Shown here: one piece after another, positions 6,426 to 59,504 of the stretch | Layout of the letters: every line of letters begins with the position of its first letter | Position numbering within the stretch: position 1 is the first letter of the stretch | Notes under the pieces: model-generated | Seen by the model: the letters and a program-made list of their open reading frames with translations, nothing else | Databases searched by the model: none | What the model was told of the DNA's origin: nothing | Position numbers and translations under genes: made by a program | Origin: Shewanella benthica | GTDB taxonomy: Bacteria; Pseudomonadota; Gammaproteobacteria; Enterobacterales; Shewanellaceae | Length of the DNA: 64,000 nt | Assembly: GCA_023284085.1 (NCBI GenBank) | Contig: JAKVHY010000018.1 | Coordinates: 1-64,000, forward strand | Direction of reading: 5' to 3'

Positions 6426-6554
6426 GACTGAGACCTTAATGGCTATTATTGATTATTATGTCCTCGATTATGCCTCAGACTAGTTAGTGAACAAAATGGT
6501 ATATAAGAATATTTACAAAATACAAATATAAAACAGAGAGTCAAAATCGAGAGA

Positions 6555-6580
6555 CAAAAAAGCCGACTAGATGTCGGCTC
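6555..6580 (-). terminator. hemN terminator
   Basis: On the minus strand AGCCGAC and GTCGGCT pair across ATCTA and are followed by six T residues. It lies downstream of hemN and its duplicated tail. Confidence 0.75.
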
Positions 6581-6585
6581 TTATA

Positions 6586-6671
6586 CTCGGTTAAATTACC
6601 CTTGAGAATTGCTGTTGATGCGCTTTCTCTCGGTTAAATCACCCTTGAGAATTGCTGCTGACGAGCTTTCT
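6586..6671 (-). repeat. 43-bp tandem duplication of the hemN 3' end
   Basis: Two adjacent 43-bp units (6586-6628 and 6629-6671) differ at only a few positions. Both begin CTCGGTTAAAT and contain ACCCTTGAGAATTGCTG. The unit nearer the gene encodes the last residues of HemN (KARQQQFSRVI) and the stop codon; the other is an untranslated copy downstream. Confidence 0.85.
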
Positions 6672-8010
6672 CTCGGTAATAGACATCGAAACAGATACAG
6701 ACATTACGGATTAACAGTCGGCCTGTGGGGCTGATGGTTATCTTCCTGTCGGTGATGTCGACAAGCTTATCATCGATAAATGTTTGTAGTAGCTTGAGAT
6801 CTTCTGCGAAGTAGTCTTCGAACTTAATCTCTAGCTTGTCATCGATTTGAGCCATATCTAATTCGAAGTGGCAGATAAGCTGTTTAATGACTACGCGGCG
6901 GATTTCATCGTCACGGTTTAGGCCACAACCTTTCCATAACGCATGACCATTAGCATCGATAGACTCGAAGTAAGGGCGGATATCTTTCTGGTTCTGGGCA
7001 TAACAGTCGCCAATCTGGCTGATCGAAGAGACGCCCAGGCCTAATAAGTCACATTCTTCTTGGGTGGTGTAGCCCTGGAAGTTTCTGTGGAGTCTGCCTT
7101 CATTTTGCAAGATAGATAGCTCATCATCGGGCTTGGCGAAGTGATCCATGCCTATATACTGATAACCAGCACCGGTTAAGGTTTCGATTGTCTGGTGCAA
7201 CATCTCTAGTTTCTGCTGCGGTGAAGCCAGATCTTCATCTTTTATCTTACGTTGAGCCGCGAAACGAGAAGGTAGGTGCGCATAGTTAAATACAGAAAGA
7301 CGATCAGGATCCAGATCCAAGACTCGCTGCATGGTTTCTGCAAAGGTTTTCGGTGTCTGGTGAGGCAGACCATAGATCAGATCTATGTTGGTCGAGACGA
7401 AGCCCAGCTCTTTGGCCTTAGCCATAAGATCGAAGATGAACTGCTCGTCTTGCTCGCGGTTGACGGCAATCTGTACCTTCTTGTTGAAGTCCTGAACGCC
7501 GATAGAGATGCGGTTAAAACCCGCCTCTTTAAGCGTATCTAGCATGGTGAGCTCGATTTCACGGGGATCGACTTCAATCGAGTATTCGCCGACTTCGGCT
7601 ACGTTGAAGTTGGCCTTGATTAGCTCTGATAGCTTGAGGATCTGATCCGGACGCAGGAAGGTCGGCGTTCCACCGCCCCAATGGATCTGGGTGACGAGGT
7701 AGTCTTTAAATAACGGTGAGCGTTTGACAATTTCAGCTGCCAGATACTCAAGATATTGGTCGGCTTTATGCTGATGACGAGTGATGACCTTGTTACAACC
7801 ACAGTAGTAACAAAGCTTGGCGCAGTATGGAATATGGATATAAAGAGAAAGCTTATCACTCTTGCTGTTCTTAATCGAAGTCAGCAGTTTTTCTTCGGTG
7901 AATGAGTCTTCGAACTCAAGCGCCGTCGGGTAAGAGGTATAACGGGGACCGCTGTAATTGTATTTTTCGATCATTGACTGATCCCAACTAATTTGGGTGG
8001 GCTGCTTCAA
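6634..8010 (-). CDS. hemN: Oxygen-independent coproporphyrinogen III oxidase
   Basis: Radical SAM enzyme that converts coproporphyrinogen III to protoporphyrinogen IX in anaerobic haem synthesis, in the cytoplasm. The iron-sulfur motif is CAKLCYYCGC, followed by GGGTP for SAM binding; YSGPRYTSYP and GMDHFAK are typical HemN segments. The reading frame extends to 8040, but a ribosome binding site GGAGG lies seven bases before a TTG at 8010. That start gives LKQPTQISW and 458 residues, almost exactly the usual HemN length, so I prefer the TTG. The 3' end is duplicated just downstream. It is separated from the DUF2489 gene by about 230 bases. Confidence 0.93.
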   Translation of the reverse strand: MKQPTQISWDQSMIEKYNYSGPRYTSYPTALEFEDSFTEEKLLTSIKNSKSDKLSLYIHIPYCAKLCYYCGCNKVITRHQHKADQYLEYLAAEIVKRSPLFKDYLVTQIHWGGGTPTFLRPDQILKLSELIKANFNVAEVGEYSIEVDPREIELTMLDTLKEAGFNRISIGVQDFNKKVQIAVNREQDEQFIFDLMAKAKELGFVSTNIDLIYGLPHQTPKTFAETMQRVLDLDPDRLSVFNYAHLPSRFAAQRKIKDEDLASPQQKLEMLHQTIETLTGAGYQYIGMDHFAKPDDELSILQNEGRLHRNFQGYTTQEECDLLGLGVSSISQIGDCYAQNQKDIRPYFESIDANGHALWKGCGLNRDDEIRRVVIKQLICHFELDMAQIDDKLEIKFEDYFAEDLKLLQTFIDDKLVDITDRKITISPTGRLLIRNVCICFDVYYREKARQQQFSRVI

Positions 8011-9377: not shown

Positions 9378-10055
9378 TTACAGATCAATAAGCGAACTTG
9401 GGTCGCGTTTTATAGCAGATCCTGATGGTTTTTGCACCAAAATGAGATCATTTGCCGCGAATAATAGCCTAAAACCTGCCTGCTCGGCTAGAAACTCGAA
9501 GGTCTCTGGCTGATAAAAGCTGACATGTGTCAGGTTGTTCTTATGATGCCACCTATCGAAAGCGTGGATTTCGGTGAGTAACTTAGTGTTTATTGCCAAC
9601 CAGGCGCCGGGTTTCAAGAGTTTACACAGCAGTGACCACTCCTTGGATGGGAAGCGGAAATGCTCGAATACCCGATAACAGCAGATAAAGTCATATTCTT
9701 GTTTCAGCAGACTATGGTCGGGGGCAAAGTAAGGGTCATACTGACGTAAGTCATGTCCCTGGGCTCGTATTGTATCGAGTGTCTGAGTGTCGGCTAAACG
9801 GCCAAAGTTAAGCCCGATTAATGCTTGATCGGTTTCTTGTGCTATTTGCTGTACCAAGCTGAGCAAAAACTGCTTCAGGGGCTTTTGGTATTTGCTGGCG
9901 CTCTTTTGGTATCGCTTTTTCTCTACCTGGGGCGGGAGATGAGAGTTCGCATCGGAAAATACCAGCTGACAGTGATGACAGGTATAGATACTGCGTTTTC
10001 TATCTTGATTAAATAGTGAGGTGTTTTCGTTGTGACAAAGAGGGCATCTAAGCAT
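9378..10055 (-). CDS. Zinc-ribbon class I SAM-dependent methyltransferase
   Basis: The protein begins with a zinc ribbon (CPLC and CHHC, about residues 4-30) followed by a basic linker and a methyltransferase domain of the Methyltransf_23 type. The middle shows CCYRVFEHF, and the C-terminal part GAWLAINTKLL and HKNNLTHVSFY. The substrate is unknown. The frame is open to 10136, but that would start inside a strong terminator (10105-10134). The start giving MLRCPLC puts the zinc ribbon at the N-terminus as in relatives; MAKYYYS at 10103 is the alternative. It lies directly downstream of the CsrB-like RNA. Confidence 0.75.
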   Translation of the reverse strand: MLRCPLCHNENTSLFNQDRKRSIYTCHHCQLVFSDANSHLPPQVEKKRYQKSASKYQKPLKQFLLSLVQQIAQETDQALIGLNFGRLADTQTLDTIRAQGHDLRQYDPYFAPDHSLLKQEYDFICCYRVFEHFRFPSKEWSLLCKLLKPGAWLAINTKLLTEIHAFDRWHHKNNLTHVSFYQPETFEFLAEQAGFRLLFAANDLILVQKPSGSAIKRDPSSLIDL

Positions 10056-10104
10056 ATAGGTATGGATCTGCTCACCATGATAAGAATAGTAATATTTTGC
10101 CATA

Positions 10105-10134
10105 AAAAAAGGCGACAGTACGACTGTCGCCTTC
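10105..10134 (-). terminator. Terminator of the CsrB-like RNA
   Basis: On the minus strand AAGGCGACAGT and ACTGTCGCCTT form a stem of ten or more base pairs closed by CGT and followed by seven T residues. No protein gene ends here, which is the first sign that a non-coding transcript precedes it. Confidence 0.85.
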
Positions 10135-10520
10135 AAAAAGTGTCAGAGACACCAATTCTTATTTCAAGTATCCGTACTTGCTATGCGACTTTCCCGGTCA
10201 ATTTCCATCTTTTTTTAGTCTGCTTTCCATGCATGTTTTTTTAGTTTTCGGTCTTCCAGACGCTTTCTTAATAGTCCTGAGTCTTCCTGACTACAGCTTC
10301 CGTAGATGGTCTTCATGACACATCACAATCCTATCGTCATCTTTGACGCCTAATTTAACCATCCATGTTAAGGTTTACCGTTGGCTTAGTCTAGTGTTCT
10401 AAAACTGATACTAGGTATCGGCGGAACAACTTTCTCTAAACCTGCAAGGGAGTGCTATTACAGCGAAATGGCCTTCCTAACCAAGTTCCTTACAAAATTA
10501 TTCTGACCTGGATTTCAATC
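10105..10520 (-). ncRNA. CsrB/CsrC-family CsrA-sequestering RNA (candidate)
   Basis: The stretch has no credible reading frame, yet the minus strand carries twelve GGA triplets between 10170 and 10490. Many are in the CsrA-binding context (TCAGGAAG, TCAGGACT, ACGGAAG, TAGGATT, CATGGAT, TTAGGAAGG) and several lie in loops of short inverted repeats. The transcript would end at the terminator 10105-10134 and be about 350-420 nt, the size of CsrB. In E. coli csrC also lies between the engB (yihA) and yihI genes, the same neighbourhood as here. The 5' end is not defined. CsrB/CsrC RNAs titrate the translational regulator CsrA and are normally switched on by BarA/UvrY. Confidence 0.6.
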
Positions 10521-10750
10521 GAAATCACGACTCTTATTATTTTTAGTGAGTGGTCTTAATTATATTATTGTTATTGAATCTATTTATTCTTATATCTTAA
10601 ATGTCACTAATACCGAAAACTGTAAGTTATTATTTAATATTTTATACAAACAGATGGGTTCATCTCGGTACGGGCTTAATTAAACCTAAATCTGTGATCT
10701 CTGTCAAGTATGTTTTTTCAGGTAGTTTACGTAAAGGTCAATTTATGGGT
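10521..10750. other. AT-rich gap between cytochrome c4 and the CsrB-like RNA
   Basis: No gene is seen. On the minus strand this AT-rich sequence would hold the promoter and activator sites of the CsrB-like RNA. A half-site TGTAAG, resembling one arm of the UvrY/GacA box, is on the plus strand near 10620, but the second arm is poor. Confidence 0.4.
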
Positions 10751-10783
10751 GTTAAAAAAGGTGGGGGGACCACCTTTTTTAAC
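10751..10783. terminator. Strong bidirectional hairpin terminator
   Basis: GTTAAAAAAGGTGG and CCACCTTTTTTAAC form a long perfect inverted repeat with A and T tracts on the two sides. It sits 10 bases beyond the cytochrome c4 stop codon and would end that transcript. Confidence 0.85.
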
Positions 10784-39989: not shown

Positions 39990-40588
39990 TCCCATTGATG
40001 AAACGTTTCGCCTTCAGCATCAAATACGTGGCTGTTCAGCCACCGGTCGCATTCATAAAACGCAGTATCTGCACTTCGCCTTCCATATCAAACACATGTT
40101 CCTTGGGCTTGAGTTTAATCGCATCTACAATATGATGGTTTTTAGTTTTCTATGTCGGCGGGGGACTCTCGACTCAGCCCCCGGTCGCATTCATAAAACG
40201 CAGTATCTGCACTTCGCCTTCCATATCAAACACATGCTCCTTGGGCTTGAGCTTGAGCTTCATCGCATCTACAATATGGTGGTTTTTAGTTCTCTATGTC
40301 GGCGGGGGGCTCTCGAACTCAGCCACCGGTCGCATTCATAAAACGCAGTATCTGCGCTTCGCCTTCCATATCAAACACATGCTCCTTAGGCTTAATCGCA
40401 TCTACAATATGGTGGTTTTTAGTTCTCTATGTCGGCGGGGGACTCTCGAACTCAGCCACCGGTCGCATTCATAAAACGCAGTATCTGCACTTCGCCTTCC
40501 ATATCAAACACATGCTCCTTGGGCTTAAGTTTAATCGCGTCTAAAATCGCGGTTTTTAACTTCTCTATGTCGCCGGGAAACTCACGTA
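39990..40588 (-). repeat. Tandem copies of the moaA 3' end
   Basis: The last stretch of about 130 bp of moaA is present in the gene (from 40455) and again at 40322, 40177 and 40039 (starts of the GCCACCGGTCGCATTC segment), with periods of 133, 145 and 138 bp. A still more decayed copy is visible at about 39990-40035. The units contain the coding sequence for EHVFDMEGEVQILRFMNATGG, split across 20 residues, with substitutions and small insertions that block translation. They lie downstream of the moaA stop codon. Confidence 0.9.
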
Positions 40589-41438
40589 CTATAACCTTGA
40601 GATCCACCGAGTGTTCATTGCCGAGGCAGAGTAGTAAGCGTCCCTCGACGGTGACGCGCACTCGGTTACACTCGTGGCAGAAGTTATTGCTATGAGGAGA
40701 GATGAAGCCGACATGGATCGAGCTGCCGGGCATAGTGTAGTAACGCGCCGGACCACCGGTACGCTTATTGGAGACACTAAGTTGATAGCGTTTGGAGATA
40801 ATCGATTTGACCTCGTCACTGCTGCAGTGACGGCTCTTCTTGCGTTCATCGATAATGCCCAGTGGCATCTCTTCGATAAAGGCGATATCCAGCTCACGAT
40901 CGCGACAAAACTCGATAAGGTCTAACACTTCATCGTCATTCTGACCGCGCAGGATCACCGCATTGATCTTGATACGTTTAAACCCGGCGGCCTTGGCGGC
41001 ATCGATACCCGCGATGACTCGCTCGACCTTGCCATTGCGGGTGAGCTCGGTAAATAGTTCAGGCTTGAGGGTATCCAGGCTGATATTGAGCCTGCTTAAG
41101 CCTGAGTCGCGCATCTTTTCGGCAAACTTAGTTAGCCGAGAGCCATTGGTGGTCATCGACAATTCTGCCAAGCCTGGCAGTGCACCGAGTTGCTTGACCA
41201 GTTTGTCGCAGTCGCTACGAACCAAGGGCTCGCCACCGGTGAGGCGGATCTTACTGACGCCAAGTTCGGTAAACGCCTGTCCCACCCATGCCAGTTCCTC
41301 AAGGCTAAGCACCTGCTCTCGTTCTAGAAAACATGGATCTTCACTCATGCAGTAGACGCAACGAAAATCACATCTGTCGGTGACAGAAAGGCGCAAGTAT
41401 TCCACTTTGCGACCAAAGGTATCGACCATCAAACTCAT
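40452..41438 (-). CDS. moaA: GTP 3',8-cyclase MoaA
   Basis: A 328-residue radical SAM enzyme for the first step of molybdopterin synthesis. The N-terminal cluster motif is CDFRCVYC, with TGGEPLVR for SAM. The C-terminal cluster is FCHECNRVR followed by LLLCLG. The protein ends in GG, the C-terminal motif that enters the active site in MoaA. It is the last gene of the tup-mob-moe-moa operon, 75 bases after mobB/moeA. The coding end has been copied several times downstream. moaB, moaC, moaD and moaE are not in the window. Confidence 0.95.
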   Translation of the reverse strand: MSLMVDTFGRKVEYLRLSVTDRCDFRCVYCMSEDPCFLEREQVLSLEELAWVGQAFTELGVSKIRLTGGEPLVRSDCDKLVKQLGALPGLAELSMTTNGSRLTKFAEKMRDSGLSRLNISLDTLKPELFTELTRNGKVERVIAGIDAAKAAGFKRIKINAVILRGQNDDEVLDLIEFCRDRELDIAFIEEMPLGIIDERKKSRHCSSDEVKSIISKRYQLSVSNKRTGGPARYYTMPGSSIHVGFISPHSNNFCHECNRVRVTVEGRLLLCLGNEHSVDLKVIVREFPGDIEKLKTAILDAIKLKPKEHVFDMEGEVQILRFMNATGG

Positions 41439-41513
41439 ACTAATTACCTACAACGGGGCGCTAACTGCGCAATTTCCTGCTTGATTTAGACCATATACAG
41501 AGCATATGGTTAA

Positions 41514-43313
41514 TTACAGAAGATCGGCAAAGGGTTGAATATAAACGGTTTCACCAGAATTTAACTGCTCATCTTGCTCACCTATGATGATCAGGCAATT
41601 GCCTTTAACCATAGAACTCAACATCCCTGAGCCCTGTGCGCCTGTTGTTGTTACGTGTAGCTTGCCATCCTGACCTAAGTGGTAGACACCGCGGATAAAT
41701 TCAGTACGTCCCTCGCGGCTGCGCATTTTGCAATCGGCAATCGCGGGAACTAGGCTAGGTTGCCAGTCTTTCTCTCCGGCGAGTTTACGCAGGGCCGGTT
41801 GCACGAATTGTATGAAGGAGACCATGACTGCAACTGGGTTACCCGGTAAACCGAAGAATAAACAGTCGCCAATCTGACCGAAGGCCAGTGGTCGTCCCGG
41901 ACGCATATTGATACGCCAGAAGTTAATTTGACCGACTCGATCTAAGGCAAGCTTGATGAAGTCGGCGTCACCGACCGATACGCCGCCTGAGCTTATTACC
42001 ATATCTGCATCCACGGCGGCCTGTTGTAACGCCTCAGCGAGGGCATCTTCTGAGTCGTGAATGATGCCTAAATCGATCACCTCACAACCTAGTTTACGCA
42101 CCATGGACTTGATGGTGAAGCGGTTAGAGTCGTAGATACAGTTGTCTTTTAATGGCTCGCCGGGTTGGCAGACTTCATCACCGGTGGAAAAAACGGCTAC
42201 CTTAGGGCGTCTAAATACCGGCAGTTGGCCGAATCCTAAGGATGCTAACATGCCTTGCTCCGGCGCCTGCATGCGCTTATGGGCTGCAAGTGCTGTCTTG
42301 CCTTTAGCGATATCTTCTCCGGCTAAACGCACGTGTTGGCCCAAGGTTATCTCTCCCTGAAAGCTGACATCTGCACCTTGTTCGTTAGCAAGCTCCTTCG
42401 CCTGTATGGTGTCGGCGCCAGCGGGCAAGGGGGCACCTGTCATGATGCGCACGGCTTCGCCGTCCTGTAGTGTGCCTTTATAATGATGCCCGGCCATCAC
42501 GTCGGCGACTATGGTGTAGCGCTCGAGCCTAGGCTCGGAGAGCTTGAATGCATAGCCATCCATAGCCGAATTGGTATTTTGTGGCACATTTACCGGAGAA
42601 ATAGCATCTTCGGCGAGCACCCTACCGCTAAGATCATCTAATGCTAGCTGCTCGGTGTCGGTGATCGGTTTTACGAAGGAGAGAATATTATCTACGCCCT
42701 GTCTGACGGAGAGCGTCTTACTCATCTCGAATTCACAGCCAGCAGAGGGAGCTAGCGGTAGAGCGACCGGAGATGCCTGCCACTTGCCGATATATTCGAT
42801 GACAAAATCGGCTATCTGAGCGACATCGTTGATATCCAAGCGACGTAATTCACCGGGTACTTGGGTGTCATCACAGCAGGCGATAGCCTGGATATTATCA
42901 TCATGAGTGTGAATAAATGGCTTGCCATGAATGGCTCTGTGTAGCTCGATTTTTGGTAACTCAAGTTTCTTGAAACCTTCGACCAAAACGATGTCGACCT
43001 TGTCTTGTTCTATTTGTTGCAACAGATGTGGCAGCTGAGGATCTCCTTCGACCGCATCTTCGGTCATGAGAGCCCAGCGAACGTGGGAGGCGACCAACAC
43101 CTGACGAGCACCCGCCTTGCGCATCTCGAAGCTGTCCTTTCCAGGAATATCCACATCGAAGTTATGGTGGGCGTGTTTAATCACCGCCAACTTAACCCCA
43201 CGACTATTTAACTCAGGAATGAGTTTCTTGAGTAGGGTGGTTTTTCCTGTGCCGCTATAGGCACAAAATCCGAGTACTGGGATCGATAGCGGATTGGTAA
43301 AAGGGATGCTCAT
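41514..43313 (-). CDS. MobB-MoeA fusion: MGD adaptor and molybdopterin molybdotransferase
   Basis: A 599-residue fusion. Residues 1 to about 175 are MobB, a P-loop GTP-binding adaptor (GFCAYSGTGKTTLLKKLI, VIKHAHHNFDVD). From about 200 the protein is MoeA, which inserts molybdenum into adenylylated molybdopterin (PQNTNSAMDGYA, GEAVRIMTGAPLP, STGDEV, SSGGVSVGDAD, LPGNPVAV). The join lies in an Ala/Pro-rich linker. MobA is encoded 14 bases upstream, so three cofactor-assembly activities are adjacent. Confidence 0.94.
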   Translation of the reverse strand: MSIPFTNPLSIPVLGFCAYSGTGKTTLLKKLIPELNSRGVKLAVIKHAHHNFDVDIPGKDSFEMRKAGARQVLVASHVRWALMTEDAVEGDPQLPHLLQQIEQDKVDIVLVEGFKKLELPKIELHRAIHGKPFIHTHDDNIQAIACCDDTQVPGELRRLDINDVAQIADFVIEYIGKWQASPVALPLAPSAGCEFEMSKTLSVRQGVDNILSFVKPITDTEQLALDDLSGRVLAEDAISPVNVPQNTNSAMDGYAFKLSEPRLERYTIVADVMAGHHYKGTLQDGEAVRIMTGAPLPAGADTIQAKELANEQGADVSFQGEITLGQHVRLAGEDIAKGKTALAAHKRMQAPEQGMLASLGFGQLPVFRRPKVAVFSTGDEVCQPGEPLKDNCIYDSNRFTIKSMVRKLGCEVIDLGIIHDSEDALAEALQQAAVDADMVISSGGVSVGDADFIKLALDRVGQINFWRINMRPGRPLAFGQIGDCLFFGLPGNPVAVMVSFIQFVQPALRKLAGEKDWQPSLVPAIADCKMRSREGRTEFIRGVYHLGQDGKLHVTTTGAQGSGMLSSMVKGNCLIIIGEQDEQLNSGETVYIQPFADLL

Positions 43314-43327
43314 TTAGACCTCGAAAT

Positions 43328-43918
43328 TTATTTGGCAATTGCCTCAGCAAGTTGTTGTTTTTGTTCTGGCGTGTTTACGTTAACAAAGGCATTGGGTTGA
43401 TCTGAAAAATCAGTGACAACACAGTTATGTTTGGCGTACCAAAAATCTATTTTTCGTTCGCCAGCATCTAAGAAGGCTTTCATCGAGTCTCTTAGGCTGG
43501 GCTTGAGCAACAAGATCACCGGTTGCTCTCTCTTGCCGTCACTGGCAACGGCTAGCTCGGCATCTTGGCTCTCTACTTGTGCCAGCATGCGTGACACTAG
43601 GTCGGTTGGTAGCAGGGGACAGTCACAAGGTACGACTAACAAATAGTCTGCCTGGGTATTACCCATGGCGGTGATCATTCCCGCTAGTGGGCCTAGGTAA
43701 CCTGTATCTTCATCACTGATGACAGGGTAACCAAACTCAGCATAACGGGTTTGATTGCGATTTGCGTTGATCATGATCCCCTTAACTTGAGGTTTTATCC
43801 GATCGATAGCATGTTTTATCATAGGTTGTTCATTCAGTTCGACTAAACCTTTATCGTTTCCACCCATGCGCCTAGCCATTCCGCCGGCTAAGATTACGGC
43901 ATCAATTTGCAATGACAT
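43328..43918 (-). CDS. mobA: Molybdenum cofactor guanylyltransferase
   Basis: A 196-residue nucleotidyltransferase that attaches GMP to molybdopterin to form [18 protein letters not shown] is the GTP-binding signature, with [10 protein letters not shown] and VPCDCPLLP further in. Its start overlaps the end of the tupC gene by 17 bases, showing that tungstate uptake and cofactor synthesis share one transcript. Confidence 0.94.
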
Positions 43919-44621
43919 ATTGAGAGTCCTGTATGTTTATTGGAGCTGTATTCGTTGGATTAGCACTTGCTGCCGACGATATTATCGTCTTGTCTTTTAT
44001 AATCCAAGTCTGATTGCATAAGCTGGTCAGCACGCAAGCCTGATGGCTGCTGATCAACATGCCTGTACCAAACTCTTGCAGTTCACTGATCATAGTGAGC
44101 ACCAGCTGTTGAGAATACTTATCCATGTTGGAGGTGGGTTCATCCAACATTAATAACTTGGGCCGCATTACCCAGGCTCTGGCGATGGCGAGTCTCTGCC
44201 TCTCACCGCCGGATAGGCTGGAGGCCGACTGTTCACAGAGATGTGTTAGCTGGGCCATCTCGATCGCGGCAAGAGTGCGTTTATTGAGGTCACTCGCTGT
44301 CATATCGCTGAATGGATGTGGGTAGCGCAGGTTATATTCGACGCTACCATCGAACAAGTAAGGGTGCTGATGTAAGTAAACCGCCTTACCCAACAGAGGA
44401 TTGGAACGCCACCAAGGCAGTGGCGCGAAACCTTCGGCGGTGATGGTGCCGCGGCTTGGTTTCAGCAAGCCGGCGAACAGCTTCATTAAGGTGCTCTTGC
44501 CGCTGCCGTTATCACCCTGCAGGTGTATGGTTTTTCCCTCAGACAGTTGTACCCTGTCAATGGTGAATAGCTGTCTGTCATCGAAGTACATCTCGATATC
44601 TTGTGCTATCAAGTTGGCCAT
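43902..44621 (-). CDS. tupC: Tungstate ABC transporter ATP-binding protein
   Basis: A 239-residue ABC ATPase with Walker [10 protein letters not shown], signature [14 protein letters not shown] and Walker [10 protein letters not shown]. With TupA and TupB it forms a tungstate importer of the inner membrane. It is separated from tupB by three bases and overlaps mobA. Confidence 0.88.
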
Positions 44622-44624
44622 AAG

Positions 44625-45332
44625 TTAGTGGCTCCTCGGTTCGGCTTTGCCTCTGAGAATACCTAAGGTGAAGTTAAGCACCAGGGAGAGTATGAGTAAG
44701 ACTAAACCTAAGGCTATCGCTTGGGCAAAATCACCTTTACTGGTTTCCAAAGCGATAGCGGTGGGGATATTACGAGTCACGTCGGCAATATTACCGCCTA
44801 CCATCATGGAGCAACCGACTTCGGTCAAGATACGACTGAATGCTGCCACAAGGGCCATCAGCAAGGGGACTTTCAACTCCCTGCACAAGGTCCAGATCGA
44901 TCTTAGCCAGGAGGCACCTAAGGTTCGGGATGTTTCCCAGGCTCTGCGGTCAACACTGGTAAAGGCGGCTTGACTCATGGCTATCAGCACCGGGGCACAG
45001 ATTAGCATTTGGCCTAAGATCATGCCTTTTTGAGTGAACAACCACTTGAGATCACCCAGAGGCCCCATACGGGTTAACATCAGATAGACGAGTAAACCTA
45101 TGACCACAGTGGGGATAGATTGTAGGGTTTGAATGAGATTGGTGATAAGCCAGCGGCCGGGAAAGCGTCCGAAAGCCAGCACAAATCCTAGTATCATAGA
45201 GGGCAGCAAGGTGATCACTAGCGCTGCAAAAGATACAGAAAAAGAGACGGAGACAATGGACCACACTTCGGGGTCCAATGAAAACAGCAGGCTCATGGCC
45301 TGCTGTAAAAGGGCTAACCAGCCTTCATTCAT
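44625..45332 (-). CDS. tupB: Tungstate ABC transporter permease
   Basis: A 235-residue integral membrane protein with five or six helices and the EAA-like cytoplasmic loop WETSRTLGASWLRSIW (about 140-155). It resembles TupB/ModB permeases. Its start overlaps tupA by four bases. Confidence 0.88.
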   Translation of the reverse strand: MNEGWLALLQQAMSLLFSLDPEVWSIVSVSFSVSFAALVITLLPSMILGFVLAFGRFPGRWLITNLIQTLQSIPTVVIGLLVYLMLTRMGPLGDLKWLFTQKGMILGQMLICAPVLIAMSQAAFTSVDRRAWETSRTLGASWLRSIWTLCRELKVPLLMALVAAFSRILTEVGCSMMVGGNIADVTRNIPTAIALETSKGDFAQAIALGLVLLILSLVLNFTLGILRGKAEPRSH

Positions 45333-46141
45333 TCGCTATAAGTTGCCTTAAATAGTTGCTCACCTTTAACTTTATAACTATTGATCATGCCTTGAGCTTC
45401 GGCGCCGATCAACCAATCACTTAGGGCTCTCGCGCCTTTGTGGTTCAGATCTGGGTATTTAGCCGGATTAATTAGCATGATCTGATATGGGTTAGCTAAT
45501 GCTTGTCCGCCATCGAAATCGATTGCCATATCCAACTTGGCCTGATAAGCCACGAAAGTACCTCGGTCTGATAGAGTATAGCCTTGTAATTCATTAGCCA
45601 TAAGTAAGGTCTTACCCATGCCTTGGCCTACTGACTTATATCCTGCGAAAGAAGGATCTACCTGGGCATTTTTCCAGATGATCAGCTCTTTCATGTTAGT
45701 GCCTGAATTATCTCCACGAGAGATAAACAGCTCACCAGACTTAGCTATTTTAGCAAATGCTTGTTCGACTGTCTTACTGCTACGTATATTTGCCGGGTCA
45801 TTTTTAGGGCCCAAGATCACAAAATCGTTCATCATGATGCCACGAGGGAGCAGACCATAACCTTCATCGACAAATTTTGCTTCGGCGGCGGGAGCATGAG
45901 TCATGATGACATCGACATCACCTTGGCGAGCTAGCTTTAATGCCTTGCCTGTGCCTGTTGCAATGACCTGCACCTGGTAACCCGACTCGGCTTCAAATTT
46001 TGGTAGTAAATTTTTCAATAAACCAGAGTTTTCGGTACTGGTGGTGGTGGCTAATTTTATTATCTCTTCGGCGTGGGCTGGTATGCCCGTTATTAACGTC
46101 GCGGCTAAGGCAATACTGAAGATCGATTTTAGGTTTAACAT
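45329..46141 (-). CDS. tupA: Tungstate ABC transporter substrate-binding protein
   Basis: A 270-residue periplasmic protein with signal peptide (cut after PAHA, about residue 24). It has the TupA hallmark ATTTSTENSGLL just after the signal, and SRGDNSGTN in the second lobe, both lining the oxyanion pocket. TupA proteins prefer tungstate, some also bind molybdate. It is the first gene of the operon tupA-tupB-tupC-mobA-mobB/moeA-moaA, which runs to 40452. Confidence 0.9.
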   Translation of the reverse strand: MLNLKSIFSIALAATLITGIPAHAEEIIKLATTTSTENSGLLKNLLPKFEAESGYQVQVIATGTGKALKLARQGDVDVIMTHAPAAEAKFVDEGYGLLPRGIMMNDFVILGPKNDPANIRSSKTVEQAFAKIAKSGELFISRGDNSGTNMKELIIWKNAQVDPSFAGYKSVGQGMGKTLLMANELQGYTLSDRGTFVAYQAKLDMAIDFDGGQALANPYQIMLINPAKYPDLNHKGARALSDWLIGAEAQGMINSYKVKGEQLFKATYSE

Positions 46142-53437: not shown

Positions 53438-53770
53438 ACGGGTCAGAACAATGAACGGTCATGTAGCGACATGAACTTAGCGATTAAGACTCATAAAAAC
53501 AATTGGTAATAAGAATCTTTACCACAAAGTAAAGGGCGAGCCGAAAACTGTCAAGTTGTAGGCCCTCAAGCTGTGAACTTGCACTTGATTTCGGTCGTTT
53601 AACCTCCATTTTTACTGTAGAAATAAAAATGAAAATGTGAGTAATTTTGTCCAGCTCGATAGCCTGGTGAGACTTTTTGTCTTCGCGCGTAGGGTCGAAC
53701 CACAGACGTTGTTCAAATAACTCGATCTAGGTTCGTTTTAGGGATTTGTTTGCTTGATACAAAAGCTCCT
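53438..53770. other. Divergent region between menF and the TonB receptor
   Basis: No gene is seen. CCGAAA at 53541-53546 and TTTCGG at 53589-53594 close a larger imperfect stem-loop containing CAAGTT and AACTTG. It could be a leader structure or simply a chance inverted repeat. No standard riboswitch signature (cobalamin, TPP, Moco) was found. Confidence 0.4.
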
Positions 53771-53789
53771 GATAATGAGAATACCAGCG
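53771..53789 (+). promoter_or_regulatory. Fur-like operator and promoter of the TonB receptor operon
   Basis: GATAATGAGAAT matches 11 of the first 12 bases of the Fur consensus; the right half (ACCAGCG) is poor. It lies 48 bases before the ATG and overlaps a possible -10 element 17 bases downstream of TTGCTT. Iron repression is therefore plausible. Confidence 0.45.
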
Positions 53790-53818: not shown

Positions 53819-55873
53819 ATGAAAGCTCAAGCTAAAATAATAAAAATATCAGCCCTTGCAGTGGCAATCTCAAGCTGTGGTGTGATTAATCTGGCCAATG
53901 CAGATGAAGCGATTGAACGTGACCCCATACTGAGCATAGGAGATGTGATAGTTGTTCATGGCGAAAGAGCAACGGCGACAGAATTATCAACGACTCATTG
54001 GAGTATTGATGAGGATGAAATAAGGGCTTTAGGTGCACAGACCTTAGATCAATTGCTTAAGAATGTACCTGGGTTATATGTACGTACCGGTGGTCAGGGA
54101 ACCCCTAGAGTCGATATTCGTGGCTTCAAGACTCGGCACGTTACCTTTCTTATTAACGGCGTTCCGGCCAATGGTGCCGAAGACGGACAATTTGATCCCA
54201 GTGTTATACCAAGCAGTCAGATAGCGTCGGTCGAAGTTTCTGTAGGACCAACTTCGGTATTGTATGGTCCAGGAGGTGCCGGCGGCGTGATTAATGTTAT
54301 CACCAAGCAAGGTGATAACTCTCCACTTTTGTCTGGCAAGTTAGAAGTCGCTGCTGACAATACGTATAACGGTGATATTAGTGCCGCAAGCTCTGGTGAT
54401 AACTGGCAAAGCCTCATCTCTGTTTCTCATCAGCAAACCGATGGTTTCCTTCTCTCAGGCGACTATCCTGATAATGAAAATCAGCAGGGAGATATCAGAA
54501 ATAATTCAGATAAAAGTGTAGATAATATTTATGCTCAGGGCAGCTACTGGTTATCTGAAGAGACTCAAATCACCGCTAACATGAGTTTTCGCTCTGGTGA
54601 GTGGGGCAAGCCATCGAGAGATGGTACCAGCAGTGGCAGTATTAAATTTGAAAGAGTCGATGATTATCAGTCGCAAACTTTTCAACTTGGTATGGCCCAT
54701 AGATTCGGTGATATGTTTATTTTCAGAGGCTTTGGTTACCACAATCAGAGTGATGTTGTAGAAAATCAATATACCAATGAGCAATACAATACGCTGAAAC
54801 AGAGCCAGGATGGTCGTTCTACTGTTCAAGGGGCTAATCTGCAATTGATAAGTGATTTCTCTGAGTCGGGGTCCCTGACAACAGCATTTATTGCCGAAAA
54901 TCAAAGTTGGACTTCAGCGTCTGAAAGTTATTCCAAAAATAAATCCATTCATCCTGCCCCTCTAGCTGCGCCAGCTTATGTTACAGGCAAGGGTGGAGGT
55001 AGCGGTGGAGGTAGTGGTGGAGGAAATGAAGCATTTGATGATTCGGCCTGGCTATATACATTAGCGGGTGAGTATCAGTACCAAAGTGATGGTGATTACG
55101 GTGTAACTCTTGGTGCCGCTTACCATGATCAGGATCGTAAGTCAGTTGCTGAAAGCGATTACTCGGGACAGGTATCAGGCTATTGGCGGCTATTTGAGCA
55201 CACTAAACTTAATGCTGGTATAGCGAAAAAAGTCCGTTTCCCGTCCATGAGAAACCTCTATGCCCAGTCTTCAGGTAATGCTGACTTAGTCGCCGAAAAA
55301 TCCCAGCACTTTGAGCTGGGCCTAGTTCAGGGGATCGGGGGCGATACTGAGTTAAATATTGCCGGCTATTATACCGATGCCGAGAACTATATTGCCAAAG
55401 ACACATCTGGCGTGTACCAGAACATGGGCCGATATCAGTTCAAGGGGGTTGATTTATCATTGAATAATCAATCTATTGATGCGCTGTCGGTGACCTTGGC
55501 CTATAGCTTCTTAGATACGGAAGATAAAGATGCCCAAGATGGTATGGATACTCTGGAATATCGCCCCCGCCATCAATTCCGCTTACAGGCCGATTACCAA
55601 TTACCTTTCTCTATGCGGATTAATATGAACTTAGAGCGGATCATGGGCCAGGTCTATTACGCCCAGAAAAAAGCGAACGGCAATAAACTTTGGCTTGAGC
55701 AGAGCCTGGCAGATTACACTTTATTGGATCTAAATCTGACCCAAGTTGTAATGGATGACAAGCTTGAACTCTACCTAAGAGCGACTAACTTGCTAGATGA
55801 GAATTACTACCAGAGTGAAGCCATTCCTCAGGCTGGTCGTCAGTTATTTGTAGGCATTAACTGGCAAATATAG
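53819..55873 (+). CDS. TonB-dependent outer-membrane receptor
   Basis: A 684-residue receptor. It has a signal peptide (about 1-28), a TonB box-like DVIVVHGER (about 42), a plug domain to about 170 (TLDQLLKNVPGLYVR, PRVDIRGF, VGPTSVLYGPGGAGGVINVIT) and a 22-strand-type barrel ending GRQLFVGINWQI. An extracellular-loop position at about 390-405 holds a glycine-serine run encoded by three 12-bp repeats (GGTGGAGGTAGC-like). It is the first gene of an operon with an ECF transporter; only 17 bases separate it from the ATPase gene. Substrate unknown: siderophore, haem, cobamide or another cofactor are possible. Confidence 0.92.
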   Translation: MKAQAKIIKISALAVAISSCGVINLANADEAIERDPILSIGDVIVVHGERATATELSTTHWSIDEDEIRALGAQTLDQLLKNVPGLYVRTGGQGTPRVDIRGFKTRHVTFLINGVPANGAEDGQFDPSVIPSSQIASVEVSVGPTSVLYGPGGAGGVINVITKQGDNSPLLSGKLEVAADNTYNGDISAASSGDNWQSLISVSHQQTDGFLLSGDYPDNENQQGDIRNNSDKSVDNIYAQGSYWLSEETQITANMSFRSGEWGKPSRDGTSSGSIKFERVDDYQSQTFQLGMAHRFGDMFIFRGFGYHNQSDVVENQYTNEQYNTLKQSQDGRSTVQGANLQLISDFSESGSLTTAFIAENQSWTSASESYSKNKSIHPAPLAAPAYVTGKGGGSGGGSGGGNEAFDDSAWLYTLAGEYQYQSDGDYGVTLGAAYHDQDRKSVAESDYSGQVSGYWRLFEHTKLNAGIAKKVRFPSMRNLYAQSSGNADLVAEKSQHFELGLVQGIGGDTELNIAGYYTDAENYIAKDTSGVYQNMGRYQFKGVDLSLNNQSIDALSVTLAYSFLDTEDKDAQDGMDTLEYRPRHQFRLQADYQLPFSMRINMNLERIMGQVYYAQKKANGNKLWLEQSLADYTLLDLNLTQVVMDDKLELYLRATNLLDENYYQSEAIPQAGRQLFVGINWQI
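54991..55028 (+). repeat. 12-bp tandem repeat coding Gly-Gly-Gly-Ser
   Basis: GGTGGAGGTAGC, GGTGGAGGTAGT and GGTGGAGGAAAT follow one another in frame inside the receptor gene and code for a flexible GGGSGGGSGGGN segment. Confidence 0.8.
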
Positions 55874-55890
55874 AGACGATAGGCAGGGGG

Positions 55891-57252
55891 ATGGAGCATA
55901 GGGTGGACTTACTCAAATTATCTGACTTGAGCTTTCGTTATCGAAGTGATGAAGGCTACATTCTGGATGAAATATCATTATCGATTAACCGAGGGGAATG
56001 CCACTGCATTAATGGCCCTACTGGCTCGGGTAAGTCAACCTTACTTAATGTGCTTATAGGGACATTATCCAGGCCGTTTGAAGGAGAACTTGTAGTTTCT
56101 GAAGGCGTTACACTTGGCTTGGTAATGCAAGATCCCAATGCACAATTTATACGTCAAAGTATCGGTGCCGAAGTCGCCTTCGCGTTAGAAAATCTCGCCG
56201 TGCCTTCAGAACTTATGCTTGAGAAGGTACAAGGTGCCTTAAGACGTGTGGGTTTGTTTGTCAGCCTAGATAGGTCAATCCAATCCCTGTCTTTAGGGCA
56301 AAAATATCGCTTAATGATAGCTGCACAACTCGTATTCCATCCGGATATCTTGCTGCTGGATGAACCTTGGGCTCAACTCGATGATAGCGGAGTCTGTGAA
56401 TTGATATCTGTCCTCAAGGGGCTCAAAGATGAAGGCGTCGCTATTGTTTTAGTTGAGCACAATCCAAGTGTTTTCGGGAACGTGGTGGACACTTTCTGGC
56501 AATTGGATCAAGGCAAGCTAACACAGGGTTGCTTTATGCCTGAGCCAATCCATTTTGCATATTCTCAGAAGGCACTCGTAGGAGAGAGTTACATACAGAT
56601 CGATCCTTTGGTATTCCGCTTTGCTAACCATGATCCCCTATTTACTTGCTCTGAACGTCTGCAATTGTATAGCGGTGAGATAGTTGCTTTAGTCGGTGAC
56701 AATGGCACCGGGAAGAGTAGCTTGCTTAAAAGCCTTGCGGGTATGCAGCCACACATACCTCCCTTGCCGATCCAGGTGTTGGCAAGGCAACCTAAACTGG
56801 GGATTTATGGCGGTGAGTTAGGCTTGTTATTCCAGCGGCCTAACAGGCAGTTATTTGAAATCAGCGTACTGGAAGAGCTGCGCTTTAGTCTTAAGCGTTT
56901 TGGCTTGCCATTAGATAATGCCGATAGGGTGCTTGATGAGATGGGGCTGCAGCATTTAAGCGAGCATTCGCCTCATCTCTTGTCTTATGGGCAGCAGCAT
57001 TTGGTTGCCCTTGCATCTGTTAGTGTCTACCAACCTAAAGTCTTGTTGTTAGACGATCCGTTTGCTGGATTAGATCACTTGTACACCTGCCGGGTATGGC
57101 AACAACTTGTTGCCTTGAGTCAGCAAGGCACGGCCATATTATTAACTAGCCATAGGATGTTGCCCCATACGCCCGTTACACGTTATTGGCGGCTCAATAA
57201 CGGTGAGTTGTTAGGAGAAGGACAAGCAGCGGATACCGTGAATGTGGGCTAA
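55891..57252 (+). CDS. ECF transporter ATPase, fused EcfA1-EcfA2
   Basis: A 453-residue protein with two complete ABC ATPase domains. Domain 1 (about 5-220) has GPTGSGKST, a Q-loop MQDPNAQFI, LSLGQKYRL and LLLDEPW. Domain 2 (about 240-445) has GDNGTGKSS, LLFQRPNRQLF, LSYGQQHLV and LLLDDPF. In domain 2 the catalytic Glu after Walker B is Asp, which may make the two ATP sites unequal. The Q-loop sequences (DPNxQ) are those of ECF ATPases for vitamins and metals. It overlaps the T-subunit gene by 11 bases. Confidence 0.9.
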   Translation: MEHRVDLLKLSDLSFRYRSDEGYILDEISLSINRGECHCINGPTGSGKSTLLNVLIGTLSRPFEGELVVSEGVTLGLVMQDPNAQFIRQSIGAEVAFALENLAVPSELMLEKVQGALRRVGLFVSLDRSIQSLSLGQKYRLMIAAQLVFHPDILLLDEPWAQLDDSGVCELISVLKGLKDEGVAIVLVEHNPSVFGNVVDTFWQLDQGKLTQGCFMPEPIHFAYSQKALVGESYIQIDPLVFRFANHDPLFTCSERLQLYSGEIVALVGDNGTGKSSLLKSLAGMQPHIPPLPIQVLARQPKLGIYGGELGLLFQRPNRQLFEISVLEELRFSLKRFGLPLDNADRVLDEMGLQHLSEHSPHLLSYGQQHLVALASVSVYQPKVLLLDDPFAGLDHLYTCRVWQQLVALSQQGTAILLTSHRMLPHTPVTRYWRLNNGELLGEGQAADTVNVG

Positions 57253-57919
57253 AGGCGGAAAACATGGGTTTGGTGCTAGCGAAAAGCTAGCTACCCGCAA
57301 AAGTGGACGGCTGCGAGCCTACGTGACAGCCATTTCATTGCTGCTGGTTTTGGTGTTATCTAGCTCAGCATTTTTTGTGTCTGACACCTATCTCCCCGTC
57401 CTGTGTATTTTCAGTGGGATTTTAGTACTGCATGGCTTGCTGCTCAGGGGCAATATTAGCGTGATAGGTCGAGTATTTATGGTGCAGTTAGTCATCACCA
57501 TGAGTCTCTACTATTTACTTCATGGCCAGAGCCAGATGGCGCAAGGCATGATTGTCGTACTCAGGATATTGCTGGCATTTATTCCTGGATGGTGGCTATC
57601 GGTAAGCACTACACCTGAAAAAATAGCTCAAGTACTCACTTGGGTGTTACCCGCTAAGTGGGCATTTGTTATCGGAGCATCGATCGGTTTATTACCTTTT
57701 ATGACCAGAGAGCTGCGCGAGATATATCAGGTGCAATGTTTAAGGGGGGCCAGAATCACACCCAAGGCGTTAAGAGATCCTAGAAACTGGCAAGAGCTGA
57801 TGACCTGTGTCGTCTTCCCGCTATTGATCCAGCTACTCAAGTTATCGCGGCAGATGGCGATTGCTGCGCAGCTGAGATATTACGGCAAAACAAATAAACC
57901 AACACATTGGCAAGAATAG
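57242..57919 (+). CDS. ECF transporter transmembrane subunit EcfT
   Basis: A 225-residue membrane protein with five or so helices. The cytoplasmic coupling region has MTRELREIYQVQCLRGARI (about 158-176), the Ala-Arg-Gly-type motif through which EcfT contacts its ATPases. It connects the ATPase pair to a substrate-binding S subunit. It begins inside the end of the ATPase gene. Confidence 0.88.
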   Translation: MWAKGGKHGFGASEKLATRKSGRLRAYVTAISLLLVLVLSSSAFFVSDTYLPVLCIFSGILVLHGLLLRGNISVIGRVFMVQLVITMSLYYLLHGQSQMAQGMIVVLRILLAFIPGWWLSVSTTPEKIAQVLTWVLPAKWAFVIGASIGLLPFMTRELREIYQVQCLRGARITPKALRDPRNWQELMTCVVFPLLIQLLKLSRQMAIAAQLRYYGKTNKPTHWQE

Positions 57920-57939
57920 CGATCCCGAAGAGAGATAAT

Positions 57940-58497
57940 ATGAATAAGAGAATGCACTTCAGTCTGCAAGATGCACTGTTTATCGGTTTTTGTGCCACCT
58001 TGCTGGTGGCATTAAAAAGTATGCTGCGGCTTAAGCTGGGATTGTCTGGACACTCGATGTTTTTGATGACGTTTTTCTATCTTATTTGCTATGGGGTTGT
58101 CGGAAGATTAGGCGCTATCACGGCCTGTGGACTGTTATCTGGTGTCGTTGCCATGATCTTGAGTATAGGTAAAGGCGGACCGTTAATTCTAGTCAAATTT
58201 GCCCTACCGGCATTAGCTATGGATCTGAGCCTGATTGTGTTGCTAGGCCTGTTTACCCTGAGGTGGCGATGTATCACAGTTGGGCTGGTGGGGTGCTTGG
58301 CATGGGCGGTGAAGGGATGGGTGGAAGATCTTTTGCTGGGCATGACAATGCAGGTTGCACTGGTACAATTTGGCTTAAGCATGTTGAAGGGCGGGGCGTT
58401 TACTGTACTCGCTGCCAGCTTGGTTCCGCCAGTATTGGAACGTCTTAGATCACATGACTTATTAGGTGACAATTTAAAGAGTAAAGGAAAAATCTAA
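57940..58497 (+). CDS. ECF transporter substrate-binding S subunit
   Basis: A 185-residue hydrophobic protein with five or six helices (for example FIGFCATLLVALKSMLRL, LISGVVAMIL-like and VLAASLVPPVLERL). Its size, position behind EcfT and topology identify it as the S subunit that decides substrate specificity, but the sequence does not match an S family I can name. The ATG at 57940 with GAGAG upstream is preferred to a TTG 11 codons earlier. Its stop overlaps the next ATG (TAATG). Confidence 0.8.
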   Translation: MNKRMHFSLQDALFIGFCATLLVALKSMLRLKLGLSGHSMFLMTFFYLICYGVVGRLGAITACGLLSGVVAMILSIGKGGPLILVKFALPALAMDLSLIVLLGLFTLRWRCITVGLVGCLAWAVKGWVEDLLLGMTMQVALVQFGLSMLKGGAFTVLAASLVPPVLERLRSHDLLGDNLKSKGKI

Positions 58498-59282
58498 TGG
58501 AAAAATCACAGAGGAAGTCTTGGCTTATCTGCATCGATGATACCGACGATATAGGGACTAAGGGGACGGGAGAAATCGCTGAAGAAATTGCAGCTTTACT
58601 ACTTGGTAATGCAGAGGACATTTCAACCTATGTGACCCGTCATCAACTATTTATCCACCCAGATATTCCCTACACTTCACATAATAGTGCTATGTGCTTC
58701 AAGTTGGTGTCGCAAAAGCCCCTAGCCGAGATTCAATCTATCGCTGTGGAGCACTTGCTAACTCAAAGTGCGGCGGCTGCAGATCCTGGCCTAGCCATCT
58801 TAGATTTATCCGCAAGTTTCGATCGACAAGCGCTTATAGAGTTTGGTTTACAGGCTAAATCTGAAGTTATAACCAAGCAAGATGCTTACGATTTGGCTGC
58901 TGCTCAGGGGATCAGTTTGAGCGAGCATGGGGGAACTGGCCAAGGTGTTATTGGTGCGCTTGCGGGGATAGGGCTAAGGCTTTATGGCCGAGATGGACGA
59001 GTCAAAGGCCAGATTAACTTATGTGAGCCTGACTCAGGTCAAAATCTTTTCGGTCGAGGGAGTATTGAATCAGGAATCGATATCTCGGTGGCTGAGTTTT
59101 TGCGACTTTCTAAGTTAGATTGCGTGGTGTCGACTAGCGGTGATCTGCTTAAGCCGGATGAGTTCATACAGCTTAGCGGAAAAATTAAAGCTATTTATTG
59201 GCAGCATCAGTTTTCTCTATTGGTTTATAGCAAGCAAGGTCGTTGGTGTAACGCACTTAAACAACATTTAAAGGAGTACTAG
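58497..59282 (+). CDS. TiaS-like IDDTD-domain protein
   Basis: A 261-residue protein beginning with CIDDTDDIGTKGTGE, the nucleotide-binding signature of TiaS, the archaeal tRNA(Ile2) agmatinylcytidine synthetase. It also has SLSEHGGTGQGVIGALAGIG, split over residues 140-160, typical of the same family. It lacks the OB-fold and zinc-ribbon C-terminus, and bacteria use TilS instead for that tRNA, so a tRNA role is unlikely. Its place in a transporter operon suggests an ATP-dependent enzyme acting on the imported compound (inference). Confidence 0.75.
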   Translation: MEKSQRKSWLICIDDTDDIGTKGTGEIAEEIAALLLGNAEDISTYVTRHQLFIHPDIPYTSHNSAMCFKLVSQKPLAEIQSIAVEHLLTQSAAAADPGLAILDLSASFDRQALIEFGLQAKSEVITKQDAYDLAAAQGISLSEHGGTGQGVIGALAGIGLRLYGRDGRVKGQINLCEPDSGQNLFGRGSIESGIDISVAEFLRLSKLDCVVSTSGDLLKPDEFIQLSGKIKAIYWQHQFSLLVYSKQGRWCNALKQHLKEY

Positions 59283-59504
59283 ATGGGGCTGCTTTTACCT
59301 TGGTATGAACAAGATGGTAATAGTCTTCGTTTTAAATTTGGCCATGATGATTATCAGGCTTCACGTGAGGCTGCAGATGTTTGTTTACATTTTAGTCCCG
59401 ATGATGAAGATGAACAGATCGATGATGTGCCAATTTCATGCTTTAACTGTATGAAACGGCGATGGTTGAAGTCGGGTTTAGAATGTATTCAACTTAAATT
59501 GTGA
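59283..59504 (+). CDS. Small CxxC protein of the ECF operon
   Basis: A 73-residue acidic protein whose C-terminal part reads CFNCMKRRWLKSGLEC. The three cysteines plus a possible fourth ligand could form a small metal site. The start ATG directly follows the stop of the TiaS-like gene, so it is co-translated. No family recognised. It may replace the zinc ribbon missing from the TiaS-like protein or serve as a metal-binding accessory. Confidence 0.65.
   Translation: MGLLLPWYEQDGNSLRFKFGHDDYQASREAADVCLHFSPDDEDEQIDDVPISCFNCMKRRWLKSGLECIQLKL

Follow-up and report, generated by a model that had tools for sequence, protein, structure and literature searches.

What would a bacterium import, and then convert, with an operon that joins an outer-membrane receptor, a complete energy-coupling factor (ECF) transporter and a relative of the archaeal tRNA-modifying enzyme TiaS? 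The question is raised by a locus of Shewanella benthica (GenBank assembly GCA_023284085.1), located on contig 18 (JAKVHY010000018.1) of a 5.7-Mb genome, within the 64,000 nucleotides analysed here (positions 1 to 64,000 of the contig, hereafter the window). According to our analysis, these genes would form an uptake-and-processing module of tungsten (possibly molybdenum) cofactor supply, a reading to which we give a probability of about 0.55. Such a pathway is suggested by gene context and riboswitches in distant bacteria; extending it from Clostridia to Shewanella, we infer the cargo, its transport and its chemistry. A sequence-only reading of the same DNA had proposed an import-and-convert pathway for a cofactor or a metal chelate; this proposal fits our tests, while the evidence narrows the predicted cargo to tungsten/molybdenum cofactor metabolism.

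Based on open reading frame coordinates, the six genes of the operon are packed on the same strand (+) at 53819-59504 of the window:

53819-55873, + strand: TonB-dependent outer-membrane receptor (684 aa; PF07715 and PF00593 above cut-off)
55891-57252, + strand: fused ECF ATPase, A-A' (453 aa; two ABC_tran stretches)
57242-57919, + strand: ECF T subunit (225 aa; PF02361, CbiQ, 46 bits for a cut-off of 25)
57940-58497, + strand: ECF S subunit of an unnamed family (185 aa from ATG; TTG at 57907 as alternative start)
58497-59282, + strand: TiaS-like protein (261 aa; TCKD kinase domain, then about 80 further residues)
59283-59504, + strand: CxxC protein (73 aa; acidic DDEDE stretch, then C-x-N-C-x(2)-RRW...C)

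Along the operon, the junctions are a gap of 17, an overlap of 11, a gap of 20 (an overlap of 13 with the TTG start of S), an overlap of 1 and a gap of 0 nucleotides, in agreement with the overlaps or gaps of fewer than 25 bases reported from the sequence alone. Pfam families likewise confirm the receptor (with both its Plug, PF07715, and its barrel, PF00593), the double ATPase (PF00005 over two stretches; 147 bits for a cut-off of 25) and the T subunit, so that the gene set, from TonB receptor to CxxC protein, is as first described. In NCBIfam, the best models are those of ECF ATPases for the double ATPase, below cut-off, and those of B12, heme and siderophore receptors for the TonB receptor, each below its own cut-off. 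In Oceanospirillum (L057, 7072-9333; loci are numbered with L and genomes with G), the double ATPase and the T subunit apparently make up one fused frame of 753 residues.

Searching the GTDB species collection with two short peptide patterns yielded at least 80 loci, with 53 Shewanella and 27 others among the matches listed, the latter including Oceanospirillum, Ferrimonas, Kiritimatiellales, Clostridia-type bacteria, Coriobacteriia, Spirochaetes, Geomesophilobacter and a metagenome-assembled genome (MAG) of Desulfobacteraceae. The conservation of the neighbourhood of the S subunit, which the sequence-only reading had singled out as a check, is complete in Shewanella: both S and the CxxC motif stand beside the TiaS-like gene in 55/55 loci (the window and L005 included), with TonB also on the same strand in 51 of them. 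These loci were fetched with a TiaS-like query, and the counts thus express linkage given a TiaS-like gene, not the frequency of linkage; they leave out L007, L006 (which duplicates L052) and four short loci, L001-L004, while some loci come from close species and L005 may duplicate another. The CxxC gene was scored by its motif, which makes its counts lower bounds (at least 32 of the 57 non-Shewanella loci), and tblastn at 1e-5 missed it in L034, L041 and L049. Gene linkage in Shewanella exceeds chance. The TiaS-like gene itself occurs in 4/148 genomes of the order, i.e., three of the nine listed in the genus and one other in the family.

A few arrangements depart from this layout. In L014, L048 and L052, the Shewanella ECF, TiaS-like and CxxC genes have no TonB match alongside; in Ferrimonas (L060), the CxxC gene (7139-7357) precedes the ATPase instead of following the TiaS-like gene, again with no TonB match nearby; in L061, TonB (5363-7298) and the TiaS-like gene (10001-10782) are each split into two matches, as a frameshift or an assembly error would produce. 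The genes for YhhQ (queuosine precursor transporter) and MenF adjoin the operon of the window in opposite orientation but, since they are missing beside the operons of several carriers, we rejected them as members of the system.

Outside Shewanella, the type of importer changes. Beside the TiaS-like genes of the 57 loci, we found a FecCD importer in 31, TonB in 3 and an ECF S subunit in 4, at least one of these being present in 36 loci. The FecCD set of L063 consists of a permease closest to BtuC (below cut-off), an ATPase and a Peripla_BP_2 binding protein, while the neighbour in L165 (and in its near-copy L164, by tblastn) is an ECF transporter whose S subunit is 26% identical to that of the window. 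An enzyme pair that stays constant while the importer varies is the pattern expected if the enzyme serves an imported cargo. Big_5-domain surface proteins stand beside the TiaS-like and importer genes or the ECF S gene in L063, L068 and L165 (Pfam) and in L202 (tblastn), and might take over the capture role of the TonB receptor. In L085, a truncated TiaS-like gene (9989-10282) lies by what appears by eye to be a tungstate/molybdate-type ABC transporter, behind a riboswitch of the type described below.

What points to tungsten is, first, the riboswitch RF01055 of Rfam, which responds to the molybdenum cofactor or its tungsten counterpart (Moco/W). It was found in 8 of the first 27 non-Shewanella loci (L062, L063, L064, L071, L076, L079, L082 and L085); L064 has three elements, none of them upstream of the TiaS-like gene, and in L062 the element follows the TiaS-like gene and precedes an AOR gene. 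From these elements, we derived a model and applied it to evenly drawn Clostridia-phylum genomes, where 12/30 loci have a same-strand riboswitch at most 6 kb before the TiaS-like gene, as compared to 0.29 expected from genome density, a low estimate owing to the strict filters and to the 50 scored candidates per genome used for the density. Adding L071, L076, L079, L082 and L085, a riboswitch is present within 6.5 kb in 17 of the 57 non-Shewanella loci. Distances between riboswitch and gene are about 90 bp in L164/L165, 330-360 bp in L153, L168 and L169, and 2.4-4.1 kb, i.e., about one operon length, in the other seven. L165 has, besides the element about 90 bp before its TiaS-like gene, a second one about 0.5 kb before ECF S, with one small frame between. 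Ten riboswitches were rescored, and the P3 hairpin is deleted in all six alignments shown: two of these RNAs lie upstream of the TiaS-like gene (L153 8718-8839 and L150 5151-5269), one upstream of ECF S (L164 5516-5635) and three elsewhere (L153 427, L153 617 and L150 17047). In section 11 of Regulski et al. (2008, PMC2408646), RNAs without P3 are those accompanying tungsten-cofactor genes. Moco/W riboswitches are numerous in Clostridia-type carriers (G828: 26, G506: 18, G488: 17, G634: 17).

The second pointer is the distribution of the tungsten-enzyme family AOR, which is present in 26/26 TiaS-like carriers versus 202/372 non-carriers of the 398-genome sample (Fisher p 2.7e-7), statistics that ignore shared ancestry even though L164/L165 and L168/L169 look like near-duplicates. 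This sample contains 37 TiaS-like places, two of which, G423 (= L063) and G647 (a fragment with stops), are not among the newly fetched loci. Since 202 of its 228 AOR genomes are devoid of the TiaS-like gene, the latter appears accessory, as an acquisition route would be, and not a core step of cofactor assembly. In a second set, AOR occurs in 22/26 non-Shewanellaceae carriers. Neighbouring genes belong to the same metabolism in L058, where MoeA, a MoaA-type radical SAM protein and a MOSC/MoCF protein (Pfam), as well as MobB and MoaC (by eye), precede the TonB gene, and in L062, where Pfam identifies AOR and where the TiaS-like gene is followed by a MoaD-like gene (by eye). In L066, likewise counted among the loci with molybdenum/tungsten genes nearby, Pfam identifies a PBP_like regulator.

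As already noted from the sequence alone, the S subunit belongs to no vitamin family that can be named: Pfam and NCBIfam give no family for it, and it passes the cut-off of none of the curated S families (YkoE/PF09819 and others), though its fold is that of an ECF S subunit. Indeed, the model computed from 28 aligned sequences has six helices (mean pLDDT 89), and its closest solved structure is 5edl (Z 17.4; root-mean-square deviation, rmsd, 3.2 over 172 residues), an ECF S component that we take to be the thiamin-precursor subunit YkoE. The top 18 rows of this fold comparison are all ECF S subunits or chains of ECF/transition-metal transporters, including folate, riboflavin, thiamin, biotin, pantothenate and cobalt types. 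By sequence, no solved chain matches S up to E 1, while PF09819 is weakly touched by three of the 28 aligned proteins, at best by the homologue of L165 (20.8 bits for a cut-off of 25.2). The alignment contains the window and 27 of the 55 homologues detected by tblastn; L008, L019 and L025 (frame broken at the coordinates used) were left out, and the remaining omissions were made for size. Six positions are invariant (L33, G37, H38, K78, G80 and K86), and K32, H38, K78 and K86 are invariant or nearly so; judging from this conservation, these lysines and the histidine would suit an anionic ligand.

With respect to its taxonomic distribution beyond the family, the S profile matched 1/274 gammaproteobacterial genomes, the window's own, and, at E 1e-4, 11/398 Clostridia-phylum genomes, among which three strongly (140-161 bits) and eight weakly (23-39 bits). 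All three strong matches lie in TiaS-like carrier genomes, two of them (L164/L165) adjoining the TiaS-like gene. Neither the latter nor a riboswitch was found in five S regions (the strong one of G634 and the weak ones of G790, G559, G488 and G699), and the weak matches are treated as probable other S subunits.

The TiaS-like protein resembles TiaS without reaching the cut-offs of its family models. It scores 16.4 bits with TiaS_TCKD (Pfam cut-off 27), 32 bits with the TiaS equivalog NF040849 (cut-off 600), over residues 11-162 only, and 43.1 bits with methanogenesis marker 11 (TIGR03280; cut-off 255.8), a model distantly matched by 24 of the 25 family members scanned (43-44 bits for the two proteins tabled). 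Family profiles find the TiaS chains at E 6e-9 to 5e-6, with a sequence match confined to the kinase domain (about residues 1-160), and the structural model of L064, a natural fusion of the TiaS-like and CxxC proteins, superposes on TiaS (4rvz and 3amt) with a Z of 21.5 and an rmsd of 1.9-2.0 over 155-156 residues, in an alignment that also touches residues up to 250. Below TiaS, the fold list is mostly made of ferredoxin-like chains (Z 8 or less), which we take as a common arrangement, and the model has a pLDDT below 50 in its Cys-containing C-terminal part. Both the IDDTD motif and the column aligned with Thr18 of TiaS, presumably its autophosphorylation site, are invariant in 23 aligned TiaS-like proteins. 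The CxxC protein, which is encoded by a separate gene in Shewanella, is fused to the TiaS-like protein in L064, L071, L073, L075, L077 and L079; hence, the two very probably act together. As for AUA decoding in a cell without TilS, i.e., the role of TiaS, this is not the situation of the carriers: TilS is above cut-off in 51/52 of them (and in 10/14 control genomes), so that AUA decoding there need not depend on the TiaS-like protein. Two or three TiaS-like genes are found in tandem in L150 (9359-11668), L152 and L156, with one copy per set belonging to a second subfamily that shares about 38-40% identity with the protein of L063.

Taken together, these observations are consistent with the following scenario. 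A scarce compound bearing tungsten, whose size or rarity would prevent its uptake by porins, would be brought through the outer membrane by the TonB receptor and through the inner one by the dedicated ECF transporter (S, T and A-A'). Once in the cytoplasm, this cargo would be phosphorylated, or activated in another way, by the kinase-fold protein of TiaS descent acting with its Cys-rich partner at the expense of ATP, thereby making the metal or cofactor usable by the molybdenum/tungsten insertion pathway. Regarding the cargo, we lean towards a chelated metal rather than bare tungstate. In its most specific form, i.e., an organic-tungsten pathway with a surface receptor, interchangeable inner-membrane importers (the new ECF S family or a FecCD-type ABC transporter) and an ATP-using enzyme of TiaS descent that opens the complex with its Cys-rich partner, we would put the scenario slightly below even odds.

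In the window, a cluster of tungstate transport and cofactor genes lies 8-13 kb from the operon, on the other strand:

45329-46141, - strand: TupA (NCBIfam match below cut-off)
44625-45332, - strand: TupB (NCBIfam match below cut-off)
43902-44621, - strand: TupC (NCBIfam match below cut-off)
43328-43918, - strand: MobA (NCBIfam above cut-off)
41514-43313, - strand: MobB-MoeA (NCBIfam above cut-off)
40452-41438, - strand: MoaA (NCBIfam above cut-off)

This TupABC-Moco cluster (40452-46141), after which come an NtrC-type regulator and a sensor kinase, is found upstream of the operon in 14 of the 20 regions fetched, that is in 14/17 Shewanella regions (picked among loci with a menF neighbour) and in 0/3 others.

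Several observations weigh against a tungsten cargo. The closeness of the TupABC-Moco cluster may be plain synteny and, since TupABC already serves bare tungstate, a second route needs another form of cargo, of which we found no report. At the Rfam gathering score, no riboswitch is present at the operon (the whole window matching only Spot 42 and 5S rRNA) or in L008, L013, L030 and L050; the sole RF01055 element found in the genome is near moaC, on contig 23. An AOR match is equally absent from this genome; a single distant AOR homologue (98-100 bits) is present in each of two Shewanellaceae carriers, and none in the other two of these four carriers or in six non-carriers. For Shewanella, the tungsten reading therefore rests on homology and on the nearby TupABC-Moco cluster. 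Elsewhere, in addition to the low riboswitch expectation and the shared ancestry mentioned above, 18 of the 30 Clostridia-phylum loci have no riboswitch within 6 kb upstream, and four of the 26 carriers of the second set (G419, G437, G440 and G443) have no AOR match. Finally, the sequence-only reading had staked its proposal on an S subunit that does not cluster with a known vitamin family, which agrees with our family searches, and on the linkage of S with the TiaS-like gene, which holds throughout Shewanella and breaks down in part beyond it, where one of the three strong Clostridia-phylum S matches is unlinked and no importer was detected beside the TiaS-like gene in 21 of the 57 loci (some of them truncated by a contig end).

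Upstream of the operon, one region is conserved:

53640-53782, + strand: TTTTGTC repeats, (A)CTCGATCTAGGTTcGTTTT, then a sigma-70-like TTGATA-17-GAGAAT (53754-53782)

Its 25-base core is recovered with at most 6 mismatches in 40 of 54 Shewanella upstream regions, the other 14 having more mismatches or no match, while the promoter-like match (9/12) is of a kind no commoner in the sequences than in shuffles. With the exact site of the operon and 18 sites at 3 mismatches, the genome has 19 occurrences of the motif versus 25 for a reversed-pattern control, and thus no regulon. We do not claim a sigma-54 promoter in this element, as the GG-to-GC spacing differs between species (by eye). A relative of the PBP_like helix-turn-helix regulator lies upstream of TonB, in opposite orientation, in 9/57 Shewanella-type sources, all without menF (Pfam on L015 only), and L054 has an NtrC-like gene directly before TonB (by eye).

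Could the cargo instead be an intact pterin cofactor (the tungsten or molybdenum cofactor, or its nucleotide form), salvaged and then remodelled in its nucleotide or pterin part by the TiaS-like enzyme? TonB, BtuCD-like and ECF importers all serve other cofactors, the target of TiaS itself is a pyrimidine carbonyl, S comes closest in fold to what is presumably the subunit for a thiamin precursor, and the riboswitch would provide feedback by the cofactor itself. However, free Moco is very oxygen-labile, and 25 of 28 carrier genomes have MoaC, hence probably make the pterin; on these two grounds, we favour a chelated metal over the intact cofactor. The genomes of L069, L076 and L086, in which MoaC has no match though AOR is present, are drafts or MAGs, either incompletely assembled or possibly from cofactor auxotrophs, and because of them pterin salvage, unlikely as we hold it to be, stays a serious rival.

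It is less probable still that the importer takes up bare tungstate, molybdate or thio-oxyanions, with the TiaS-like protein engaged in cofactor assembly or metal handling instead of acting on the cargo. Such a division of labour would accommodate the Tup/Mod-type neighbour of L085, the TiaS-like genes of L079, L153, L168 and L169, which come close behind a riboswitch with no importer detected, and the conserved Lys and His of S, which fit an anion. Yet a TonB receptor would be odd here, since oxyanions cross porins and have TupABC/ModABC, while the 202 AOR genomes without a TiaS-like gene argue against a core cofactor enzyme.

An ordinary vitamin, heme or siderophore system with molybdenum/tungsten genes as chance neighbours would explain the best NCBIfam models of the TonB receptor and the resemblance of the L063 permease to BtuC (all below cut-off); we regard it as very improbable, given that no Fur-like box stood out in 37 upstream regions (best matches of 9-13/19 to the 19-base consensus), that the window has no B12 or thiamin pyrophosphate riboswitch at the gathering score, and that Moco/W riboswitches and AOR are enriched. 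Lastly, a tRNA modification merely juxtaposed to transport is scarcely credible for the TiaS-like protein, despite a kinase domain that aligns to TiaS with an invariant Thr18 column and a Cys-rich partner recalling the TiaS zinc domain, for TilS is present in nearly all carriers, the sequence likeness ends with the kinase domain and importer linkage is frequent.

Each part of the tungsten uptake module proposed here comes from a known superfamily, whereas the gene combination, the S family and the link between a TiaS relative and tungsten were not found in the open-access PMC literature searched. Searches of that literature returned nothing on TiaS with an ECF transporter, nothing on methanogenesis marker protein 11, and nothing relevant on tungsten, tungstate and molybdate together with a TonB-dependent receptor; for energy-coupling factors with tungstate or molybdate, they returned among others a cobalt CbiMNQO study (PMC13119186). 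Few metals used in biology are as rare as tungsten, for which the uptake systems known to us handle bare tungstate. If our reading is right, the existence of a TonB/ECF/FecCD route with a cytoplasmic enzyme of its own would mean that tungsten (or molybdenum) is imported in complexed form, and natural carriers of this metal, whether a tungstophore or the pterin cofactor itself, would be a shared environmental resource. It would also add a family of ECF S subunits whose cargo is neither a vitamin nor cobalt or nickel, as well as a role for the bacterial relatives of TiaS and perhaps for methanogenesis marker 11, the fold of a tRNA-modifying kinase being re-used in metal cofactor supply. As the operon is present in cultured Shewanella, for instance in S. 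decolorationis S12 (locus L084), the prediction is directly testable.

Among known systems, ECF transporters share with the operon the grouping of all subunits in one operon, the six-helix S fold and a T subunit of the CbiQ family, but the S subunit of the window falls in no curated vitamin or metal family found and is accompanied by a TonB receptor and by an enzyme resembling TiaS. We know of no ECF cargo of the tungsten/molybdenum class. The archaeal TiaS (tRNA(Ile2) agmatidine synthetase) has the same kinase fold (Z 21.5 with 4rvz and 3amt), IDDTD motif and Thr18 column; in contrast, the match of the TiaS-like protein ends near residue 160, with 32 bits instead of 600, in carriers that have TilS (51/52). 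Methanogenesis marker 11 is a distant match for nearly the whole family, which differs by scores far below 255.8, its bacterial distribution and its linkage to importers. In B12 uptake (BtuB-BtuCDF and ECF versions), three transporter classes serve one nutrient; these are the classes met here, and the cofactor riboswitch is a further likeness, whereas the receptor of the window reaches 137 bits with the TonB-B12 model (cut-off 599.7) and neither the window nor the loci scanned have a cobalamin riboswitch at the gathering score. Finally, TupABC/ModABC under Moco/W riboswitches resemble the present module by the riboswitch upstream of some non-Shewanella loci and by the TupABC-like genes near the operon in the window, and differ from it in that the latter combines a TonB receptor and ECF or FecCD-type importers with a cytoplasmic enzyme of kinase fold.

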